Source: an uncultured Myxococcales bacterium (GTDB taxonomy: Bacteria; Myxococcota_A; UBA9042). Taken from it: a stretch of DNA of 64,000 nucleotides. How positions within the stretch are numbered: position 1 is the first letter of the stretch; every line of letters starts with the position of its first letter. The notes below the pieces were generated by a model. It was not told where the DNA came from and ran no database searches. It worked only from the letters and a program-made list of their open reading frames with translations. This document shows, piece by piece, positions 8,280 through 20,544 of this stretch. The position numbers and the translations under genes are program-made. The stretch covers positions 372,001-436,000 of the forward strand of contig CAIMLR010000036.1 in assembly GCA_903842345.1 (NCBI GenBank), read 5' to 3'.

Positions 8280-10223
8280 CTACTCCGTCATCTTCCAGGT
8301 CGCCTGCAGCAGCGCGCGCATCGCCGGGGCATCCGCGTGATCGCGATGCCGTTCGTACAGGTCGCGGGCCGCCTTGTCGAGTCCCGCAAGCGTCGGCTGG
8401 GCTTGCTGCAGGTCCGCCAAGTGCTGCAGCGCCTCGAGCGGGCGGGCGCCTGAATCCGCACCGAACACACCGGCGGCCGTCCACGCCGGCGCTTGCCAGG
8501 GCGATTTTTCCAGCGGCGCCGCCCACGCTTCCGCTGCCGCGTTCTGTCCCGCCGCGACGCCCAGCGCGAACACGTCCAGCGGTTCGCGACCGCGCAACTG
8601 CCGCGGCGGCAACAGCCGCACCGCCGCCCAGCCGTCGGACCAGGCGCGGCACCGCATCGCCCAATCCAGGGCAATCCGCCGCGTCAGCACCGCCGGCTTG
8701 GGCACCTGCGCCAACGTGCGTGCCAGCGGCGTCCCGTCTTCGCACCGCCCTTCCTTGCGCGCCAAATCAAAGCCGAGCGCCAGCACGTCCAAATCCGTCG
8801 GCCGAATCTGCAGCGCTTGCTGCTGGAAGTGGCGCGCTTCAACAAGCCGCCCGCGCTCCATCAGCGTGAAGGCGAGGTTATTGGCCATGCGCATGGAATG
8901 GGGCTGAAGCACAACGCCGCGCGCATACAGCGCCAGCGCGTTTGTCCAGGCCGCCGCGGCCGTGGGCGTCTCCTGCAGGCACACGCCCAGCGTCACCGCC
9001 GCCAACGCCGCCGCGCCAAGCGCGCGCAACCGCGGGACGATCCGACCCTGCGGCCGCCAGATCGCAACCGCCAAAGGCACGCCCGCGCACAGCGCCACGG
9101 ATGGCGCAAACAGCAGGCGATCGGCGTACAGCGTCGTCGAGACAAACAGCAAATTGGCCACCGGCAACCACGTCAGCATCGCCCACACCAGCGCCAGCAC
9201 GCCCAATTCAGCCGGCACAAGATCCTGTTCGTCCACCAGCGGTTTTTGCCGCGCGCGCCGACCGAGAAAAATTGCCGCCGCCAGCGAAATGAGCAGCAGC
9301 GCGAGTCCACCCAGCACTTCCGCATCCGGCTGGAGCAGCGGCGGCCACGCGTTGAAGGCATAGTCGGGCGCGAGATCCACCGGCCAAACCAGATGCAGCG
9401 CCGCGCGCAGCACGATCGCCAGCGCCGTCCAGACGCGCACGGCAGTTGACACGTTGACCAGCGGGTTGTCGGCCTCGGAGATCGGCAGCGCCGCGATGGG
9501 GCCAAACAGCCAATGGCGCCAGGCAAGCCACGCGACGGCGATCAGCGTCCACGCCACGAGCAGCGGCAGAAAACGCCGGAAAAGGTGAGGCCGCGCGATC
9601 GCCCACACGCACGCCAGGGGTAGGAGCATGAGCGGCTGTTCCTTGCTCCACAGCGCCGCGCCAAACGCCAGCGTCCCGACGGCGAGGTTCAGCGGCGTCC
9701 CGCGCCCCTGTCGCCATGCCAGCAGGACCTCAAACGCCGCGAGTTCGAACAGCAACGCCAGCAGCTCCGGCCGGTAGGCGACCTGCATCACCACCTCCGC
9801 GTGCGCGGGATGCAGCGCGAACCACAGGCCGCCCGCCAGCGCCGCCAGCCGTCCCGCCACATCCAGCCGCCAAAGCGCCGCCAGCCGCGCAATCAGCGCC
9901 GTGAGCCACGCGCAAGCGAGCGCGTACAGGAGGACATCGGTCCAATGGCGCGCGCGACTTGAGTCGGCGCCGAGGCCCTTCTCCACTGCGAAACTCAGCG
10001 TCGCCAGCGGCCGTGAGAGGCGGATGTAGGCGTGATCGGCGTCGCCAAAATACGGCGCGCGGACGATCTGACCGAGATCAACCGGCCACTTGACCGCGGG
10101 GTGCTGCAGGAACGCCGGCGCGTCGTCCTGAACAAATTCAGCGCGATCCGCCGGCGGACCGTAGACCGCCAGAACCGCGAGCGCGACGAGCAGCGGCGCC
10201 AGCCAGGCGCGCGGGGCCGTCAT
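8280..10223 (-). CDS. Polytopic membrane protein with C-terminal TPRs (TMTC/GT-C-like)
   Basis: The 647-residue protein has a first membrane helix followed by AEFVQDDAPAFLQHPAV, resembling the acidic FVxDD motif in the first luminal loop of TMTC-type and other GT-C glycosyltransferases. About ten membrane segments run to about residue 400. A soluble C-terminal part follows with tetratricopeptide-like helices (LALYARGVVLQPHSMRMANN, LMERGRLVEARHFQQQALQI). In eukaryotes TMTC proteins O-mannosylate proteins; bacterial relatives are uncharacterised. The start overlaps the rodA stop (ATGA), so it is translationally coupled to a cell-elongation gene. That neighbourhood suggests an envelope role, but the donor and acceptor are unknown. 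Confidence 0.65.
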   Translation of the reverse strand: MTAPRAWLAPLLVALAVLAVYGPPADRAEFVQDDAPAFLQHPAVKWPVDLGQIVRAPYFGDADHAYIRLSRPLATLSFAVEKGLGADSSRARHWTDVLLYALACAWLTALIARLAALWRLDVAGRLAALAGGLWFALHPAHAEVVMQVAYRPELLALLFELAAFEVLLAWRQGRGTPLNLAVGTLAFGAALWSKEQPLMLLPLACVWAIARPHLFRRFLPLLVAWTLIAVAWLAWRHWLFGPIAALPISEADNPLVNVSTAVRVWTALAIVLRAALHLVWPVDLAPDYAFNAWPPLLQPDAEVLGGLALLLISLAAAIFLGRRARQKPLVDEQDLVPAELGVLALVWAMLTWLPVANLLFVSTTLYADRLLFAPSVALCAGVPLAVAIWRPQGRIVPRLRALGAAALAAVTLGVCLQETPTAAAAWTNALALYARGVVLQPHSMRMANNLAFTLMERGRLVEARHFQQQALQIRPTDLDVLALGFDLARKEGRCEDGTPLARTLAQVPKPAVLTRRIALDWAMRCRAWSDGWAAVRLLPPRQLRGREPLDVFALGVAAGQNAAAEAWAAPLEKSPWQAPAWTAAGVFGADSGARPLEALQHLADLQQAQPTLAGLDKAARDLYERHRDHADAPAMRALLQATWKMTE

Positions 10224-11350
10224 CGGGCTTTGCGCCGCAGGGCGATGTTCAGGAGAAAACCCGCGCCGATGAGCACCGTCAGGGCGGAAGAACCGCCGTA
10301 GCTCAGGAGCGGCAACGTGAGGCCGACAACCGGCAAAAGGCCGATGACCATGCCGGCGTTGATGAAGAACTGCCAGAAGACCAGACCGGCGACGCCGATG
10401 GCGAGCAGCGCGTCAAAGCGTTCCTGGGCGCGGTCGGCGATGTGGAGTGCCCACCAGACGAGGCCGAGGTAGAGGCCAAAAAGGAAGATGCAGCCGATGA
10501 GGCCCCAGCGTTCGGCGAAGCAGGCGAGCGCGAAGTCCGTGTGGACGAATGGCACGTGGCGGAGGACGGAGACGCGGGCTTCGTCATCGCCCCGGCCGGC
10601 GACGCGCCCGGAGCCAACGGCCCACAGGGCTTTTTCAGCCTGCCAGTTGTCGCGATTGGCGCCGCCCTGCCCGGTGTCGGGCGTCTTGTCGTCGTCCTGC
10701 ATGGCGTGCCACCAGGTCTCCGCGCGGCCTTTCTGGTAGTCGCGGATGATGTCGAATTTCCAAGCGAGCCCCACGCCGATCAGCGCCACGCACAGCGCCA
10801 TCACCAGCGTGCGCCGCTGCACGCCGTCGTAGAGCAGCACGCCGAGCGCGATGAGCGCGACGCACACCGACGTGCCCAAATCCGGTTCGCGGTTGATCAG
10901 CGCCACGGGCATGCCGATCAGCAGCGCGGGGATCAGCAGTTGCCGCAGCTTCCACGGTGTTTGGCTGCGCTTCTTGTCAAACCAGTCCGCGAGCATCAGC
11001 GCGATCGACATCTTCATGAATTCACTGGGCTGGATGTTGGCGGGGCCCAGCTCCAGCCAGCGCTTGGAGTAGTTGATCTCCCGGCCAAAGAACAACACCG
11101 CGAACAGCAGGACGACGAGCACCGCGTACACGAACGGGCTGACGCGGCGCACGAACTGCATGTCCAGGCGCGCGGTGACGCCCGCACCGATGAGGCCGAC
11201 GACGATCCAGATGGTCTGCGAACGGTGGTAGGTCGTGCCGAGCATGGAGTCGGCGAAGTGGAGGTTTTCAATGGCGATGGCGCAGAGCCCGAGCACACAG
11301 AACAACCCGATGAGGGTCGAGGGCTGGCGCATGCGGGCGAGGTCGGACAT
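10220..11350 (-). CDS. rodA: Rod-shape SEDS glycosyltransferase RodA
   Basis: The 376-residue protein has about ten membrane helices. It carries the SEDS signatures: YSKRWLELGPANIQPSEFMK (periplasmic loop and the conserved PSE motif), INREPDLGTS (the conserved EPDLG/S segment), and the C-terminal LPLLSYGGSSALT signature. RodA polymerises lipid II into glycan strands and works with penicillin-binding protein 2, which is encoded two genes upstream on the same strand. Gene order from right to left is mrdA, TauE-like, rodA. The loop between 'EPDLG' and 'HTDFALACFAERWG' is complete, so the protein looks intact. Confidence 0.95.
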   Translation of the reverse strand: MSDLARMRQPSTLIGLFCVLGLCAIAIENLHFADSMLGTTYHRSQTIWIVVGLIGAGVTARLDMQFVRRVSPFVYAVLVVLLFAVLFFGREINYSKRWLELGPANIQPSEFMKMSIALMLADWFDKKRSQTPWKLRQLLIPALLIGMPVALINREPDLGTSVCVALIALGVLLYDGVQRRTLVMALCVALIGVGLAWKFDIIRDYQKGRAETWWHAMQDDDKTPDTGQGGANRDNWQAEKALWAVGSGRVAGRGDDEARVSVLRHVPFVHTDFALACFAERWGLIGCIFLFGLYLGLVWWALHIADRAQERFDALLAIGVAGLVFWQFFINAGMVIGLLPVVGLTLPLLSYGGSSALTVLIGAGFLLNIALRRKAR

Positions 11351-11362
11351 CAGCGGGCAACC

Positions 11363-12121
11363 TTACGCGTGGGCGAAGAAGAACTTGACGGTCATGACGG
11401 CGCCCGTCGCGATCACGAACTGCCGGACGCGGGCGGCATCGACCCGCTTGGCGAGACGCGCGCCAAAATACCCGCCCACGAGCGATCCCGCCACCATCAG
11501 CAGCGCTGGCCGCCAGTGCACGACGCCGGCGACGATGAACGTGACGACCGCGGCGGCGTTGATGGCCGCACCGAGGAGCGACTTGAGGCCGTTCATCGCG
11601 TGGATGTCGCTCAAGCCGGCGAGCGCGTAGACAGCGAGCATCAGGATACCCATGCCGCCGCCGAAATAGCCGCCGTAGATGGCGATGACGAACTGGCCGG
11701 CGAGCATCGCGTACGGATGGATCGCGCCGTGGCTGCGGGCGCGCAGAAAGGTCACCGCGCGGCCGGAGACGGCAAAAAGCAGCGTCGCGGTGAGGAGCAG
11801 CCAGGGGACAATGCGGGCGAAAGTTTCGTTGCGGGTCCAGAGCAGGAGGAGGGCGCCAAGGAGGCCGCCCAACAGGCTGACGAACGCGAGCTGGGGCAAT
11901 TGTCCGCCGTGGCTGCTGACGTCCTTGCGGTAGGCCCACGTGCTGGCGAGGCTGCCGGGCCACAGGGCGACGGTGCTTGTGGCGTTGGCGGCAATGGGCG
12001 CGAGGCCGCCCGTGACCAACGCGGGGAACGTAAAGAAGCTGCCGCCGCCCGCGACGCTGTTGATGGCGCCGCCGGTCATGGCGGCCCCGATGATGAGGGC
12101 GTCCTGGGCGGAGAACATCAC
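11363..12121 (-). CDS. TauE/SafE-family (TSUP) membrane permease
   Basis: The product is about 252 residues with seven or eight membrane segments. The pattern IGAAMTGGAINSVAGGGSFFTFP in the first helix pair and a repeat-like second half (FVIAIYGGYFGGGMGILML) are hallmarks of the TSUP/TauE family. These proteins carry anions such as sulfite, organosulfonates or related compounds; the substrate cannot be read here. Start choice: a GTG (12121) sits seven bases after GAGG and overlaps the mrdA stop by GTGA, while the next codon is ATG (12118). Its place between mrdA and rodA is unusual and suggests a supporting role or chance insertion in the operon. Confidence 0.85.
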   Translation of the reverse strand: MMFSAQDALIIGAAMTGGAINSVAGGGSFFTFPALVTGGLAPIAANATSTVALWPGSLASTWAYRKDVSSHGGQLPQLAFVSLLGGLLGALLLLWTRNETFARIVPWLLLTATLLFAVSGRAVTFLRARSHGAIHPYAMLAGQFVIAIYGGYFGGGMGILMLAVYALAGLSDIHAMNGLKSLLGAAINAAAVVTFIVAGVVHWRPALLMVAGSLVGGYFGARLAKRVDAARVRQFVIATGAVMTVKFFFAHA

Positions 12122-14505
12122 GGAAGCACCTCGTCAGCAGCGCCGCCCGGCGCCTCGCGCGGTTCACCAGCCGGACGGTTGGCTGGGTCGTCCTCCGGCG
12201 GCACCGTCGGCACCGACTCAGGGTCGGCGATCGGCGTTTCATCCAGTTCTTCCGAATTCGCCGCCTTCCGCCGCCCCTTGCCGGCCGGTGCATCCATGGC
12301 CTTGGCGTGCGGATGGCGGGCGAACCACGATTCGACGATCTTCACAGCGATCGGCGCAGCGTTGTGGCCACCCGATCCGCCGTGTTCGACAAAGACCGCC
12401 ACCGTGATCTCTGGATCTTCGGCCGGCGCGTAGCCCACAAACCACGCGTGATCGTTCTGCATCCAGGTCGTCAGCCGGCCCAGCGCCAGGGGATCCGCCT
12501 TCAGTCGCTCGATCATGTCCGGCCGCGGCCGTTGCGCCGCCTGCGCCGTACCCGTCTTGCCCGCGAGCACCACGTTGGTCGGCTGGCTGCTGTACGCCGT
12601 GCCGCCTTCGTCATTGACCACCGCCAGCAGCGCGTTGCGGATGAAACGCAGCGTGGACGCCTTCACCGGCAAGTCGCGACCTTCCGGACGCGGCAGGCGC
12701 GGCAGCAGCTTGCCGTCCGGCCCCTCAAAACCCTGCACGAGCGTCACGTTGGGCAAGATGCCGTCGCGCCCCAGCGCTGAATACACGCGCGCGACCTGCA
12801 GCGGCGTCGCCGTCACGTCCTTCTGACCCACCGCCGTCGACAGCGCAAAACCCGGGTAGTAGCCGCCCTTCACGTGCTGCGCGTACCACTCGCGCGTCGG
12901 CAGCCGGCCCTGCGCTTCGTGGATTTCAATGCCGGTCAGCTCGCCGTACCCCAGCTTGCGCGCCCAGGATTCCAGGCGATCGAGGCCGAGCAGCTCGCCC
13001 AGATGGTAGAAATAGACGTCGCACGACGAGCGGATCGCCTCCCGCAGGTTGACGTCGCCATGGCCGCGCTTGGAGTGGCAGTGAAAGCGCCGACCGCCAA
13101 AATCGTAGTAGCCCGGGCAGTGAAACGTCGTCGCCGGATTGACGATGTTCTCCTCCAGCGCCGCGATCGCCGCCACGATCTTGAAGGTCGACGCGGGCGG
13201 AAACGCGTGGATCGCCTTGTCGAGCAGCGGCGCGTAGGCCGCCGTGTCAGAACCAGTCTTGCCGTGCGGCGCGCGCTTGCCGGACATCGTGTTGGGGTCA
13301 AAGCTCGGCTTGGAGTAAAGCGCCAGCACTTCGCCCGATCGCGCGTCGATCACCACCGCCGCGCCGGAAAACACGTCTTTCATCGCGACTTTGGCGACGC
13401 GCTGCAGCTCCAGATCCAGCGTCAACCGCAGCGTCAGCCCGGCCACAATCGGCCGCGGCTGCAGGCCGGCGATCAGGTCGTCCATGCCCTTGGCGCTCTC
13501 ATCGGTGCCGGAACGCCGCACCACGACCTGCTCGCCGTCGATGCCGCGCAGCGCCTGGTCAAACGCCCGCTCCAGACCCGTGCGCCCCACGCGATCCGTC
13601 AGCGCATACCGCGGCGGCAACCACGGCAGCAGCGGCGCGCGGTCCGCGTCGGTCACATAGCCGACGTAGCCCAGCAGGTGACTCGCCAGGTAGCGGAACG
13701 GGTACTCGCGCTGAATCTCCGACTGCAACCGCGCCTCCGGCAGCAGGTGCAGATTGGCGCGCAGCACCGCCACTTCATCATTGAACGTGCGCTGGCACAG
13801 CGGGCACTTGAGGTTGTGGTGGCCGTGATGCAGCGCGTGGTGGTCATACGGGCAGAGATCCGCCGACGAGAACTCGCGCTCGCACGACGAGCAGCGCATT
13901 CCGTCGCCGCCGGGGACCGATTGCAGCTTGCGCTGGTCAAACGGGCAAGCCTTCCGCGCCGGGATCGGCTCAAAATTGCGCCCACAGACCGGGCAGAAGC
14001 GGTACTCGACCTCCGAAGTCAGCTCCAGCTGGCTGGAATCGTAGGGGCAATGCGTGGAGACCAGGTCGCGCCGCACCACCAGCGGCTGACGCTTGCGCGG
14101 ATCGGCGTCGCGGACCAGTTCTGCGCGCAGTTGCTGCACTTCGCTGTCGGTCATGTCCAGCAGCTCGCGCAGCCGGCCGACAATCGCCGCCACGCGGTCA
14201 GTCTTGACCTTGGCCGGCAGCAGTTCCAGCGAATGGCTCTCCAGATTGCGCGCCAGCACCGTGCCGTCCGAGCCCTTGATCTGCCCGCGCGGCGCCTGGG
14301 ACCGCACTTTGCCGACGCGTTCAATCGTCGCGATCTTTTCGTAGTTGGCGCCCATCAGGCCCTGGACGATCACGAGCCGGGCGATCAGCACCAACACGGC
14401 GACAAAAACGCCGGCCATCGCCAGGCGATTGCGGGCATGAAAGCGTTGCGCGTCGTGGGAAGGGCCAAGAACAGTCATCGGTTGTTGCGCCGCGGGCGGG
14501 CCCAT
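12118..14505 (-). CDS. mrdA: Penicillin-binding protein 2 with three zinc-ribbon-like repeats
   Basis: From the ATG at 14505 the protein is 795 residues; an in-frame ATG at 14478 is an alternative and nothing decisive separates them. There is one N-terminal membrane helix (RNRLAMAGVFVAVLVLIARL), then the pedestal domain. The transpeptidase domain carries PPASTFKI (S439-x-x-K), SSCDVYFYHLG (the SxN-equivalent) and AGKTGTAQ. These are the complete class B penicillin-binding motifs, so it should cross-link peptidoglycan with RodA. Oddity: residues about 152-240 form three repeats of the pattern CPxD-x3-L ... CxxCxRxF (nine Cys in all) inside the periplasmic pedestal domain. The C-terminal tail after about 735 is Pro/Glu-rich. 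Confidence 0.93.
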   Translation of the reverse strand: MGPPAAQQPMTVLGPSHDAQRFHARNRLAMAGVFVAVLVLIARLVIVQGLMGANYEKIATIERVGKVRSQAPRGQIKGSDGTVLARNLESHSLELLPAKVKTDRVAAIVGRLRELLDMTDSEVQQLRAELVRDADPRKRQPLVVRRDLVSTHCPYDSSQLELTSEVEYRFCPVCGRNFEPIPARKACPFDQRKLQSVPGGDGMRCSSCEREFSSADLCPYDHHALHHGHHNLKCPLCQRTFNDEVAVLRANLHLLPEARLQSEIQREYPFRYLASHLLGYVGYVTDADRAPLLPWLPPRYALTDRVGRTGLERAFDQALRGIDGEQVVVRRSGTDESAKGMDDLIAGLQPRPIVAGLTLRLTLDLELQRVAKVAMKDVFSGAAVVIDARSGEVLALYSKPSFDPNTMSGKRAPHGKTGSDTAAYAPLLDKAIHAFPPASTFKIVAAIAALEENIVNPATTFHCPGYYDFGGRRFHCHSKRGHGDVNLREAIRSSCDVYFYHLGELLGLDRLESWARKLGYGELTGIEIHEAQGRLPTREWYAQHVKGGYYPGFALSTAVGQKDVTATPLQVARVYSALGRDGILPNVTLVQGFEGPDGKLLPRLPRPEGRDLPVKASTLRFIRNALLAVVNDEGGTAYSSQPTNVVLAGKTGTAQAAQRPRPDMIERLKADPLALGRLTTWMQNDHAWFVGYAPAEDPEITVAVFVEHGGSGGHNAAPIAVKIVESWFARHPHAKAMDAPAGKGRRKAANSEELDETPIADPESVPTVPPEDDPANRPAGEPREAPGGAADEVLP
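13789..14052 (-). other. Triple zinc-ribbon-like insert within mrdA
   Basis: This segment encodes three tandem repeats. Each starts CPYD or CPFD, has a Leu four residues later, and after 8-11 residues shows CxxC followed by RNF, REF or RTF. The third repeat is also His-rich (HHALHHGHH). Flanking residues on both sides match ordinary penicillin-binding protein 2 pedestal sequence, so this is an in-frame insertion rather than a frameshift. Each unit supplies three Cys plus an Asp or His and could bind one zinc; that is inferred from the pattern only. Confidence 0.75.
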
Positions 14506-14672: not shown

Positions 14673-15794
14673 ATGATGCGTCAAGTCGTTGTTCTGGTGC
14701 TCGCTTCTGTGGCTCTCGTGGCTTGTGGCTCAACCTCCGGCGGCGGTGGCAGCGGTGGCACCTACTACGGCCTGGATGGCACGAGTCTGGGCGACGTCAG
14801 CACGCCGACCGATGCCGCGGCGGACGCCGATAGCGCGTTGACCGACACGGGAACCAAGGCCGATGTGGCCGCCGACGTCCCGCAGCCCGCGACGCTGAAG
14901 ACGTGCGTGGCCGCATCCCAGTGTGCGATCGACGCGTGCAAGGCCAATTGGACGTCGACGTGCGGCGCGACGTGTGCCAACGCGACGGCGAAGGAAGCGG
15001 CAACGACGGCCGCCGCGCTCCTGGACTGTACCGTGAAGAAATGCCTGCAGGGCAAGTGCGCTGGCGCGACGCCGCCGAGCCAGAAGTGCATGGACGACTG
15101 CACGGCGTCGGATTGCCCGACCGAGCTCATCGGCTGCTGGGAACAGGGCGCGACGCCGGGCACCAAAGGCTGCAGCACGATCGTCGGCTGCCTGACCGGC
15201 TGCGACAACGCCGCCGAGCGTTTCACCTGCCAAGCCGCCTGCTACAACGCCATCGACAAGGCCAGCGAGACGCAGTTCAAGGCCCTGAGCACCTGCGTCA
15301 ACGCCAACGGCGGCAAGACCGGGCCGTGCGCCAAGGAATCGCTGAGCTGCCTCGCCGATGGCAAGACCGGCAGCGGCTCGTGCTACGACGTGCAGGACTG
15401 CATCGGCAAGTGCGCGAGCACCGACACGGCTTGCCAGGGTGCCTGCTACGGCAACGGCAGCGGCACCGCGCAGACCCAGTTGCTCGCGCTCCTGGACTGC
15501 GTCAACACAAGCGGCGCGGACAAGTGCCTCGCCCCGACCATCACGTGTGCGACGCCGACTGGCTCGACCGGCTGCGTCGACACGGCCACGTGCGTCGGCG
15601 CGTGCCCCACGGGCGCTGGTCAGTCCACGTGCATCATGAACTGCCTGCACAAAGCCACCTCCGGCGGCGCCCAGGCGTTCGCCAAGCTCGCGCCCTGCAT
15701 GCAGAAGAATTGCGCCGGCTGCACCGGCAGCGCCTGCCAGAGTTGCGCGGGCAGCAAGTGCCTGAGCGACGCGCTGAACTGCAACAGCAACTGA
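14673..15794 (+). CDS. Cys-rich surface lipoprotein with internal repeats
   Basis: The start is one of two adjacent ATGs behind AAAGGG. The 373-residue product has a lipoprotein signal peptide (MMRQVVVLVLASVALVAC, lipobox LVAC, Cys18) and then a Gly/Ser and Asp/Ala-rich linker. The rest is made of repeats of roughly 50-90 residues with the recurring pattern C-x-x-x-C ... ALLDC ... C-x-x-x-C, for example AALLDCTVKKCLQGKC and LALLDCVNTSGADKC. Regular Cys spacing suggests disulfide-bonded exported domains. No enzyme motif is seen. Such proteins are common in myxobacteria-like genomes and are usually of unknown function. It is the first of three exported-protein genes on this strand. Confidence 0.8.
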   Translation: MMRQVVVLVLASVALVACGSTSGGGGSGGTYYGLDGTSLGDVSTPTDAAADADSALTDTGTKADVAADVPQPATLKTCVAASQCAIDACKANWTSTCGATCANATAKEAATTAAALLDCTVKKCLQGKCAGATPPSQKCMDDCTASDCPTELIGCWEQGATPGTKGCSTIVGCLTGCDNAAERFTCQAACYNAIDKASETQFKALSTCVNANGGKTGPCAKESLSCLADGKTGSGSCYDVQDCIGKCASTDTACQGACYGNGSGTAQTQLLALLDCVNTSGADKCLAPTITCATPTGSTGCVDTATCVGACPTGAGQSTCIMNCLHKATSGGAQAFAKLAPCMQKNCAGCTGSACQSCAGSKCLSDALNCNSN

Positions 15795-15821: not shown

Positions 15822-15849
15822 TTGAGTCCGCGCGCCACCGGCCTAGACT
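15822..15849 (+). promoter_or_regulatory. Candidate promoter for the dikinase-like lipoprotein
   Basis: TTGAGT (15822-15827) and TAGACT (15844-15849) are separated by 16 bases, each matching four of six consensus positions, about 45 bases before the ATG at 15895. Confidence 0.4.
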
Positions 15850-15894
15850 GACGTACGTGGCGCGTCCGGACCTGCGCCCGCGCGTGGGCGAGCC

Positions 15895-18240
15895 ATGACG
15901 ATTTCCCGAACTGCCGCGCTCCTTGCCGCCGCCGCCGCGTGCTTCGCGTGTGGCCATACCGCGGGTTCGCCTTCTGCCGTCCACGTCGGCGTCGCGAACG
16001 CCGATCCGTTCGTCGCCATCGCCGCATTTGCGCCGCGCGACGTCGTCGTCCTCGCTTGTCCAGCCACCTCGTCTGTCGATGCGCGCGTCGCGTGTTCGGC
16101 AGGCGGTCTGGATTTCGCCGCGGACGTGACAACGGTCGACCTGCTCCTCAAGGCGCGCGAGCGGGCGTTCCTGCGTCAGGTCATTTCCGGCACGTCGCTG
16201 GATCTGACGCTTGCCGCGCTGCCAGCGGCCAAGGTGACGCCGGACTACCGCATGGGCTTTGCCGCGGACGACGAGCCAGCTTTTCGCGCATTGGCCTACC
16301 GCGCCGACACGGAATTGGGCGATGCGTGGTCGGTGAAATTCTACATCGCCGACGTCCAGACCGCGCCGAAGGTCTACTTCCAGAACACGCGCAAACATCC
16401 GCTGCACTACGCTTTTGCCCACGACGTGCTGGGCGTGCCGGGCACGGTGGATGCGTTTGAGGCCGCGACGTATCACGGCGCCAATCGCCAAGCGCTGGCG
16501 GGCACGCTTGTGTACTACCCGAACTTGCACGCCCACGGCGCGTCGCTGCCGGACGATGTCTCCGGCGTCGTCGCGCTGACGTTCTTTCCCAGCGACGACG
16601 CAACGCCTGCGCAGATCGCCCTGGCGCACGGTGCGATTGAGGAGCGGCTGGGATTCGTCGCGCTTTCCGGCGGCGACAAGCGGCTGATTTACGTTCCGGC
16701 GGGCAGCACGCAGGAGGACGACGCCACCGCGCATCCCGAGCCGCTGCTCCGGCAAGGCGCGCCGTGGCTGACGCGGACGGAGCTGTATGGCGGGCTGCAG
16801 CAGCAGCTGCTCAATCCCGGCGTGGCGTATGGCAAGCTGCAGCGCATCGATCCGGACACGCTGAGCCACACGCCGGTGTCGCGGGGCGATGTGCTGGTCC
16901 TGACCCGGCTGCCCAATCAGGCGCCGCTGGTGGGCGGGACGATCACGGAGGAATTGCAGACGCCGCTGGCGCACGTCAACGTGGCGGCGCACACGCGCGG
17001 CGCACCGAACATGGCGCTGTTGGGTGCGGGCGCAGATCCGCGGATCGCGCCGCTGCTGGGCAAGTTCGTGCGTTTTGAGGTGGCCAAAGGCGCATTCTCC
17101 CTGCGCGAAGCGACGCTCGACGAAGCGAAGGCGTATTGGCAGAGTCAGGAACGGCCGTTGTACGTGCCGCCGCATGATGAAGCGGCGACGGACCTGCGCG
17201 ACTTCACGCAGCTCGGCTTTGCGGATGCGGTCCGGGTCGGCGTGAAGGCGGCGAATCTCGCGGAGATGACGCACGTGCTGCCGGATAACACGCCCAAGGG
17301 CTTTGGCGTGCCGTTTCACTACTACGCAGTCTACATGGCGACAACGCACGCGACGCCGACATTGTGCGATGGCGCGCGGACGAATTGCACCGGCGAAGGC
17401 CGTCCAGCCGCCGTGTGCGATGCCGCGCGGGCGATTTGCCTGCCAGCGGGCGCGACGGCGGAGACGCTCAACGACCACGTCGCGCGTTTGCTCCAGGACG
17501 ACAATTTTGCAACGGATACGGCGCTGCGCGAGGCGGCGCTGGACAACCTGAACTGGCTCGTGGCGGCGGGTGAAGTCGATCCGGCGTTCGCGACCGAGTT
17601 GGACACCCGCGTGACGGCGCTCAACGGAACTGCCAACGTCAAGCTGCGCTCGTCGACCAACAGCGAGGACTTGCCGGATTTCAGCGGCGCCGGGCTGTAC
17701 GAGTCCTACTCCGCCAAGGGCACGGGCGGCAACGCGGCGCATCTGCGGATCCGGCTGGTCTGGGCGTCCGTCTGGACGTTCCGCGCGTTTGAGGAGCGGG
17801 CTTTCTGGCACATCGATCAGCAGGCCGTGCGCATGGGCGTGGTCGTGCAGCCGTCGTTTCCTGACGAGCAAGCCAACGGCGTGATCATCACGCAGAACCT
17901 CGCGGATCCCAATACCGTGGGCTACTACGTCAATGTCCAAAAAGGCGAGGAGTCCGTGACCAACCCGGTCAACGGCGAGCTCGCGGAGATCTTCAGCATC
18001 CTGCCATCGCCGACCGGCCTGCAAGTTGAACGCTCGCGGTTCTCATCGCTCTCGCCGGGCGTCGCGCTGCTGACACTGCCGGAAGTGGCGGCGCTCTACG
18101 GCGCGGCGTACAAGGTCCAGCAGCACTTTGCCCCGCTGTACGGTCAGGATCCGGGCACGATGGCGCTGGACATGGAGTTCAAGTTTGAGGGGCCAACGCG
18201 CGCGCTGTTCCTGAAGCAAGTGCGGCCGTACCACCAATAG
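15895..18240 (+). CDS. Exported PEP/pyruvate-dikinase-like protein (glucan water dikinase-like order)
   Basis: The 781-residue protein has a signal peptide with lipoprotein-like Cys at positions 16 and 19. Residues 340-375 read LVGGTITEELQTPLAHVNV, a phosphohistidine swivel domain with H360 in the position of the phosphorylated His. Residues about 440-780 form the ATP-grasp domain of PEP synthase-type enzymes: VKAANLAEM, LRSSTNSEDLPDFSGAGLY (584-602) and LFLKQVRPY (771-779). The swivel-before-ATP-grasp order and the TPLAHVNV context resemble glucan/phosphoglucan water dikinases rather than PEP synthase. Why an ATP-using enzyme should be exported is unclear; the signal peptide could be misread, but the hydrophobic N-terminus with Cys is plain. 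Confidence 0.72.
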   Translation: MTISRTAALLAAAAACFACGHTAGSPSAVHVGVANADPFVAIAAFAPRDVVVLACPATSSVDARVACSAGGLDFAADVTTVDLLLKARERAFLRQVISGTSLDLTLAALPAAKVTPDYRMGFAADDEPAFRALAYRADTELGDAWSVKFYIADVQTAPKVYFQNTRKHPLHYAFAHDVLGVPGTVDAFEAATYHGANRQALAGTLVYYPNLHAHGASLPDDVSGVVALTFFPSDDATPAQIALAHGAIEERLGFVALSGGDKRLIYVPAGSTQEDDATAHPEPLLRQGAPWLTRTELYGGLQQQLLNPGVAYGKLQRIDPDTLSHTPVSRGDVLVLTRLPNQAPLVGGTITEELQTPLAHVNVAAHTRGAPNMALLGAGADPRIAPLLGKFVRFEVAKGAFSLREATLDEAKAYWQSQERPLYVPPHDEAATDLRDFTQLGFADAVRVGVKAANLAEMTHVLPDNTPKGFGVPFHYYAVYMATTHATPTLCDGARTNCTGEGRPAAVCDAARAICLPAGATAETLNDHVARLLQDDNFATDTALREAALDNLNWLVAAGEVDPAFATELDTRVTALNGTANVKLRSSTNSEDLPDFSGAGLYESYSAKGTGGNAAHLRIRLVWASVWTFRAFEERAFWHIDQQAVRMGVVVQPSFPDEQANGVIITQNLADPNTVGYYVNVQKGEESVTNPVNGELAEIFSILPSPTGLQVERSRFSSLSPGVALLTLPEVAALYGAAYKVQQHFAPLYGQDPGTMALDMEFKFEGPTRALFLKQVRPYHQ

Positions 18241-19058: not shown

Positions 19059-19577
19059 CTACTTGCGACCGAGCAGGCCCGAGCGGTGCGGATGCTCGAA
19101 CCGGCCAGTCACGCGGTCCAGCAGGCCAAACCACGGCGGCGCGACAAGCATCGTGATGAGCGCCAGCGGCAGCGCCATGCGCAGGACGTCGCCGTACGCG
19201 TCAAACGCGCGATGGAACACCGCCTCCAACAGCAGGAACACGACCGTCGCGGCCAGGCTCAGCGCCGCCGACGTCGCCATCACCGGCACCGCGCTGCGCA
19301 GGTCAACGCGCGGCTCCAGGAAGCGCCCGAGCAGCGCCGCGAGCACGCCGACCTCCGTGTACAGGCCCACGGGCACGGAAAGCGAGAGCCCGTCCTTGAG
19401 CAGGCCAACGGCGAAACCGACAAACACGGCCGTTGGCGTACTCGTGCGACTCCCAGCGTAGAGCGCGGTGAGGAGCGCGATATCCGGCGCAAAGAACTGG
19501 CTGTCAAAATGCCCCAGGAGCGGCGACAGCAGCGCGAGCGCGAGGAAAGCCAGCAGGATCCAGGCAAATGGCTTCAT
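19059..19577 (-). CDS. mreD: Rod-shape protein MreD
   Basis: The start at 19577 is set by GAGGAG seven bases upstream and by the membrane helix that begins at residue 4. The 172-residue protein has five or six membrane helices. The segment FVGFAVGLLKDGLSLSVPVGLYT matches the conserved MreD GLxxDxxxxxxxG region. MreD is an inner-membrane partner of MreC in the elongation complex. It follows mreC by seven bases. The gene ends six bases from the convergent lipoprotein gene. Confidence 0.88.
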   Translation of the reverse strand: MKPFAWILLAFLALALLSPLLGHFDSQFFAPDIALLTALYAGSRTSTPTAVFVGFAVGLLKDGLSLSVPVGLYTEVGVLAALLGRFLEPRVDLRSAVPVMATSAALSLAATVVFLLLEAVFHRAFDAYGDVLRMALPLALITMLVAPPWFGLLDRVTGRFEHPHRSGLLGRK

Positions 19578-19584
19578 GGGCTCC

Positions 19585-20544
19585 TCATGGCGGCGAATCC
19601 GGCGTGTTGGCGGGGTCAACCGTGCGGCGGCCCTTGGCGTCTGCCGCGGGCGCGGCGGCGGGTGCGGTTGGCGAGGGCGGCGCATCGGCATCCGGACCGT
19701 GGTAGCCCGTGACGATCAGCACTTCTTCCAGCGTGGCGTAAGAAACCGCCGCGGCCAGCACGAACTCCTGATAGGGACCACTTTGCGTCGGCGCTGCATC
19801 GGCGATGTGGCCAATCTCCAGGCCCGCCGGGAACACGCGGTCATGCCCCGTCGTCAGCACCGCATCGCCCGCCGCCAACGGCGCGCCGCGATCCAGCTTA
19901 TCCAAGTGCACAAACTGCGCGGTGAACTCGTTGCGCTTGCCATTGCCTTTCACCGACCCGATCACGCCCTTGCCCGGCACCGTCGCGTGCACCTGGCTGC
20001 GCGCGTCGGTCACCAGCATCACGTCGGCAAATCCTTGGGACACGCGGTCGATACGCCCGACCACGCCGTCGTCGGTGATCACGGCCATGCCTTCCTTGAT
20101 GCCAATCAGGCCATCGGTGTCGATCTTGATGCGCATGACCTGAAAGAACTGCGACACGTCGCGGCCAATCACGCGCGCCGGCACCGTCGTGAAGTCGCGG
20201 TGCTCGGCTTTGAACTCGCACAGTTCCTTGACCCGCTGCAATTCCTCGCCAATCGCGCGGGACTTCAGCGCCTCGCCGAGCAGCACCCGATTCTCGCGCT
20301 CCAGCACCTCCGCGTGCTGCTCCACGTTGGAGAGGAAGACGTAGCGCTGCGCCATCTTGCGCGTCGCCTCGATTGCGTCGTGGTTGAGCTGCGTGAACGG
20401 CGACGTGATGGCCAGCAGCCCGCGTTCCACAAACGTCGATTCCGTCCGCGTCTTGCCGTGCCAATACATGGACGCGATCGGCAGCACGAGCGCGAGCGTC
20501 AGCAGCAGCGATTGGCGGTAGCGTTGGAAAAGGTCGCGCAACAT
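19585..20544 (-). CDS. mreC: Rod-shape protein MreC
   Basis: The 319-residue product has an N-terminal membrane helix (LLLTLALVLPIASMYW), a coiled coil (FLSNVEQHAEVLERENRVLLGEA) and two beta-barrel modules. MreC signatures include ARVIGRDVSQFFQVMRIKIDTDGLIGIKEGMAVIT, split over residues about 120-155, and VGRIDRVSQGFADVMLVTD. A Pro/Ala-rich tail follows. MreC scaffolds the elongation machinery (PBP2, RodA, MreD) in the periplasm. mreB is not next to it in this window. Confidence 0.93.
   Translation of the reverse strand: MLRDLFQRYRQSLLLTLALVLPIASMYWHGKTRTESTFVERGLLAITSPFTQLNHDAIEATRKMAQRYVFLSNVEQHAEVLERENRVLLGEALKSRAIGEELQRVKELCEFKAEHRDFTTVPARVIGRDVSQFFQVMRIKIDTDGLIGIKEGMAVITDDGVVGRIDRVSQGFADVMLVTDARSQVHATVPGKGVIGSVKGNGKRNEFTAQFVHLDKLDRGAPLAAGDAVLTTGHDRVFPAGLEIGHIADAAPTQSGPYQEFVLAAAVSYATLEEVLIVTGYHGPDADAPPSPTAPAAAPAADAKGRRTVDPANTPDSPP

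Follow-up and report, generated by a model that had tools for sequence, protein, structure and literature searches.

A conserved zinc-ribbon-like insert, probably nested, in the pedestal of PBP2 from one class of Myxococcota-like bacteria

The window, a 64,000-nucleotide stretch of DNA from an uncultured Myxococcales bacterium, carries on its minus strand the PBP2 (mrdA) gene (14505-12118), a single open frame of 795 residues with a probable start at ATG 14505 and an alternative ATG at 14478. Its product passed the NCBIfam model pbp2_mrdA (TIGR03423; 513.7 bits, cut-off 455), matched the Pfam domains Transpeptidase and PBP_dimer, the latter split by an insert, and had intact catalytic motifs S-T-F-K, S-C-D and K-T-G, which bears out the identity given to it in the preliminary description. 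AlphaFold2 modelled the N-terminus as a long helix, in keeping with a transmembrane anchor. Downstream of PBP2 on the same strand are a TauE/SafE-type transporter gene (11363-12121; domain match and synteny) and rodA (10220-11350), which encodes the glycosyltransferase partner and was assigned by synteny and by its matches to NF037961 RodA_shape (168.5 bits, cut-off 150) and TIGR02210 (327.3 bits, cut-off 336.7). The gene for MreC, a protein with one Cys (19585-20544, minus strand; profile match and synteny), is directly followed by an mreD candidate (19059-19691, minus strand) that is a conserved neighbour in relatives. By score, motifs, domains and linkage to rodA and mreCD, the gene at 14505-12118 is an intact elongasome PBP2, a class B penicillin-binding protein (PBP). 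The order mreC-mreD-PBP2-rodA was retained in relatives; the transporter gene occupies the place between PBP2 and rodA only in this genus, and no such gene was seen at this position in the other relatives. The divergent neighbour (14673-15794, plus strand) encodes a putative lipoprotein that is rich in Cys, shows repeated Cys patterns and matches no Pfam family, and the frame at 15895-18240 (plus strand) a putative lipoprotein-like protein with a C-terminal PPDK_N (pyruvate phosphate dikinase AMP/ATP-binding) domain.

The insert of about 90 residues lies in the pedestal (PBP_dimer) domain. With short flanks it forms a segment of 109 amino acids (13747-14073, minus strand; insert numbering 1-109), which was also modelled alone; the span singled out originally, 13789-14052, corresponds to insert residues 8-95. 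The motif C-P-x-D...C-x2-C occurs three times in frame, as had been noticed, and yields six knuckles that alternate CPxD and CxxC and offer 12 ligand positions, nine Cys and three Asp. On the minus strand these are knuckle 1, C9-P-Y-D12 (14038-14049), present in every intact member; knuckle 2, C27-P-V-C30 (13984-13995); knuckle 3, C43-P-F-D46 (13936-13947); knuckle 4, C61-S-S-C64 (13882-13893); knuckle 5, C74-P-Y-D77 (13843-13854); and knuckle 6, C90-P-L-C93 (13795-13806). Two knuckles provide four ligands per site, and both the CPxD and the CxxC sets are conserved.

Bridging through L075, a PBP2 from outside the class, placed the insertion between L138 and E140 of E. coli PBP2, where the insert follows a strand and precedes a helix in the head subdomain. 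The pedestal, including the head, is the interface of PBP2 with MreC and RodA, and MreC binds the pedestal (PMC9974482, PMC10257715), so the proposal that the insert sits in this contact region agrees with the literature. E. coli-type PBP2/MrdA (6g9p, 8tj3) and the H. pylori PBP2-MreC complex (5lp5) share the pedestal-transpeptidase fold with the window protein (VIA Z 42-45), but E. coli-type PBP2 has no insert at this position. As anticipated for well-studied class B PBPs, no counterpart was found in solved class B PBP structures, nor in any of 40 PBP2s from other classes of the phylum. The insert matched Zn_ribbon_6 (PF07191, the YfgJ double zinc ribbon) below cut-off (19.5 vs. 25 bits), and weak matches to this family were seen in 19 of 31 members. 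A match to the Rad50 zinc hook (PF04423; 31.8 vs. 24.3 bits) was rejected, as only 16 residues were matched and flanking coiled coils were absent. When the PDB was searched by sequence with the profile of the insert, most matches were C2H2 zinc-finger look-alikes and none was a PBP, and literature searches found no paper on such a PBP2 insert, which apparently has not been described so far.

A second Cys-containing site lies in the transpeptidase domain. Residues C454, C467, H473 and C486 (model numbering; 13021-13119, minus strand) were invariant in 57 aligned PBP2s, and C486 is the middle residue of the S-C-D motif. In residue identity they match the arrangement of known zinc-binding PBPs, namely two Asp/Cys, one His and the Cys of SxN. 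Such sites are already known from A. baumannii PBP2 and C. difficile PBP2, PBP3 and SpoVD, which, like the protein described here, use Cys, Asp and His ligands outside the cytoplasm and whose four positions are invariant here (PMC9974482, PMC9334274). As judged by these residues, the known transpeptidase-domain zinc site is conserved in the window PBP2 too, and the initial remark that Cys-based zinc sites are unusual outside the cytoplasm is not borne out for class B PBPs. In those proteins a single site lies by the active serine, whereas the insert forms a module of its own within the head of the pedestal; it is this zinc-ribbon-like pedestal module that is apparently new.

Every one of the 26 intact three-unit homologues, which come from independent assemblies, retained all 12 ligand positions. 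D46 was replaced by His in three homologues (L019, L021 and L022), and an Asp/His exchange at this position is typical of a metal ligand. Intact full-length members had an odd number of Cys (nine, three per unit), with the exception of one member with 10. The dN/dS of the insert was 0.03-0.16, akin to that of the catalytic transpeptidase domain, which indicates purifying selection. Chance and assembly error were excluded as origins of the insert because the same ligand positions recur in 26 independent homologues at low dN/dS. At positions other than the ligands, conservation in the insert's base came close to that of the head helix, and the arm was variable. The stretch joining knuckles 1 and 2 was longer by 5 and 14 residues in L028 and L030, respectively, and that joining knuckles 5 and 6 was constant.

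As far as the sampling goes, only one class of the phylum has the insert. Most of the relatives with a name are metagenome assemblies of uncultured Myxococcales, and the isolate names of several point to lakes. At the corresponding place, the 40 out-of-class PBP2s have nearly always 55-57 residues (69 in one) vs. 148 in the window, with zero to two Cys. Within the class, a one-unit form that retains CPxD...CxxC was found in all 14 proteins of two families, units were eroded in three lineages (L031 with L049, L032, and L048), and one protein (L046) had no insert units. In a quick transpeptidase-domain tree rooted on an outgroup, the class formed a single clade (support 100) and the one-unit clade grouped with a family that contains a three-unit member (support 94), so contraction from three units to one is likelier than growth. 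On this tree, the class appears to have started from three units. Outside PBP2, profile matches across the phylum were to multi-ribbon tails and other Cys-rich proteins and included no PBP2 inserts. Five such proteins (L115, L116, L118, L120 and L122) carry several CPxC...CPxD ribbons at their C-terminal end, in most cases behind a transmembrane helix. The tails of L115, L116, L118 and L122 resemble the insert in their repeated CPxC and CPxD knuckles, with CPxH variants too, but differ in being C-terminal and in belonging to proteins other than PBP2. Multi-ribbon tails of this kind are a possible source of the PBP2 insert.

AlphaFold2 predicted the insert confidently, with pLDDT values of 91-95 within the whole protein and 85 for the insert alone and with identical strands in both models. 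The models are metal-free, and clustering of the Cys was read indirectly from the strands and from structural alignments. In every knuckle, a residue in a strand or bridge directly preceded the first ligand, and another stood six positions beyond that ligand. In both models, strands 17-26 and 82-89 were unbroken, which places knuckles 1 and 2, and likewise knuckles 5 and 6, at opposite strand ends. VIA alignments of the insert model to known single zinc ribbons (NudC, RNA polymerase Rpb9/RPC10 and eL37) were low (Z 2-3). The NudC ribbon fell on insert residues 36-70, covering knuckles 3 and 4 (35 residues aligned, 2.4 A); the NudC zinc ligands, which we take to be Cys98, Cys101, Cys116 and Cys119, would be put on C43, D46, C61 and C64 by a constant shift of 55. 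Known single ribbons also aligned to the two end regions of the insert together, where knuckles 1 and 6 lie (about 40 residues aligned within the range 6-109). These placements predict pairs 3-4 and 1-6 and leave 2-5, by elimination, as the likely third pair. The single ribbons are cytosolic, have one site and are usually Cys4, whereas the insert sites would be Cys3Asp, nested and periplasmic.

Loss patterns in the eroded lineages suggest the same pairing. On the premise that the periplasm disfavours free Cys, a damaged site is expected to keep either zero or two Cys or its full ligand set. Among the 15 possible pairings, 1-6/2-5/3-4 was the only one that left no damaged site with an odd number of Cys in the three lineages. 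With this nested pairing, L031 and L049 would have lost site 2-5 and be left with Cys pairs at 1-6 and 3-4, L032 would have lost site 1-6, and L048 would retain one complete zinc site. Since the multi-ribbon tails of the phylum are usually built from CPxC...CPxD units, pairing 1-6/2-3/4-5 was weighed too; it left three odd-Cys sites and is contradicted by the structural alignment of knuckles 3 and 4. The parity test, over three independent erosions, is suggestive of nesting.

The sequence order of three successive CPxD...CxxC units had led to a tandem arrangement being proposed, in which knuckles 1-2, 3-4 and 5-6 would each form a structural Cys3Asp site. We consider this improbable, though a reading to be weighed. 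Both arrangements share the 3-4 ribbon, and the length variation of the 1-2 linker in L028 and L030 fits a tandem hairpin tip more easily than nesting. Tandem ribbons, however, would require a turn between knuckles 1 and 2 and between 5 and 6 where both models have continuous strands, do not explain why single ribbons align to both ends of the insert, and leave five odd-Cys sites in the eroded proteins. The predicted structure of the insert aligned with NudC and other zinc ribbons at low scores (Z 2-3) and did not favour the tandem order; the units are probably three nested zinc ribbons.

The zinc sites of the helicase PriA are nested, as proposed here for the insert. Structures of its two-site zinc domain (6dcr, 8fak and 4nl8) were the best Foldseek matches to the insert (prob 0.75, E 0.04), although no match was significant. 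PriA is, like PBP2, an enzyme interrupted by zinc sites (PMC7290993), but it is a DNA helicase with two sites and has no detectable sequence relation to the insert.

The window genome appears well equipped for oxidative folding, and its periplasm is probably oxidising, to judge from VKOR and 18 DsbA-like thioredoxin domains. These Thioredoxin_4 domains are encoded at L126-L133, several of them as tandem threes within one open frame. One further open frame (L125; G000 contig C7, about 15839-17140) combines VKOR, DsbA-like thioredoxin and FGE-sulfatase-like domains in an unusual oxidative-folding fusion.

We favour, with slightly better than even confidence, the reading that the insert forms an arm of three nested, zinc-stabilised ribbons in the PBP2 head, with a structural role in docking a partner from the elongasome or the envelope. 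The chain would fold back on itself and its six knuckles would pair as base (1-6), middle (2-5) and tip (3-4), each pair joining a CxxD and a CxxC into one Cys3Asp zinc site. The base ribbon would be part of the head itself, set between a beta-strand and a helix, and the two inner ribbons would stick outward as a rigid arm beside the head, which contacts MreC and RodA. Such an arm could stiffen the head and present a docking surface, for which MreC is the first candidate and a lineage-specific protein the next, and docking might help to place or activate RodA-PBP2. With its one Cys, MreC was rejected as a matching Cys-rich partner, and the variable arm surface outside the ligands gave no sign of a single conserved partner. 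Zinc is the likeliest metal because each site offers three Cys and one Asp or His and class B PBPs bind zinc outside the cytoplasm (PMC9974482, PMC9334274). A more tentative extension is that the nested arm, assembled in an oxidising periplasm, provides the elongasome with a regulatory contact specific to the class and that some lineages swapped zinc for disulfides while keeping the arm.

The suggestion that metal or redox state tunes the elongasome would make the insert a periplasmic sensor in which zinc loss or Cys oxidation alters the head and switches RodA-PBP2 activity. A Cys-rich arm within an MreC-contacting domain, the wealth of VKOR and DsbA-like proteins, and the redox sensing speculated for zinc-binding C. 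difficile PBPs (PMC9334274) all fit this idea. We nevertheless regard it as unlikely: sister lineages hold the arm length with Cys sites gone or cut to even pairs, other relatives were trimmed to one ribbon or lack the insert although a required switch should be less dispensable, and no regulatory partner was found. A structural scaffold is favoured over a sensor because relatives eroded their ribbons to apparent disulfides, trimmed them or lost them. A metal-free, disulfide-bonded Cys-rich module appears less probable still: it suits the periplasmic location, the strong oxidative folding machinery and the disulfide-like eroded relatives, but three Cys and one Asp per unit leave an odd number that disulfides alone cannot satisfy in all but one intact member, the fourth position is invariably Asp or His, and the knuckle spacing is of the zinc-ribbon type.

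PBP2 is a near-universal drug target, and RodA is controlled by the PBP2 pedestal. A conserved metal arm on this pedestal, as predicted here, would mean that a whole bacterial class has remodelled the control point of RodA. The natural series of three ribbons, one ribbon, disulfide-like forms and none would offer material for studying how extracytoplasmic proteins acquire structural zinc sites and substitute other bonds for them.
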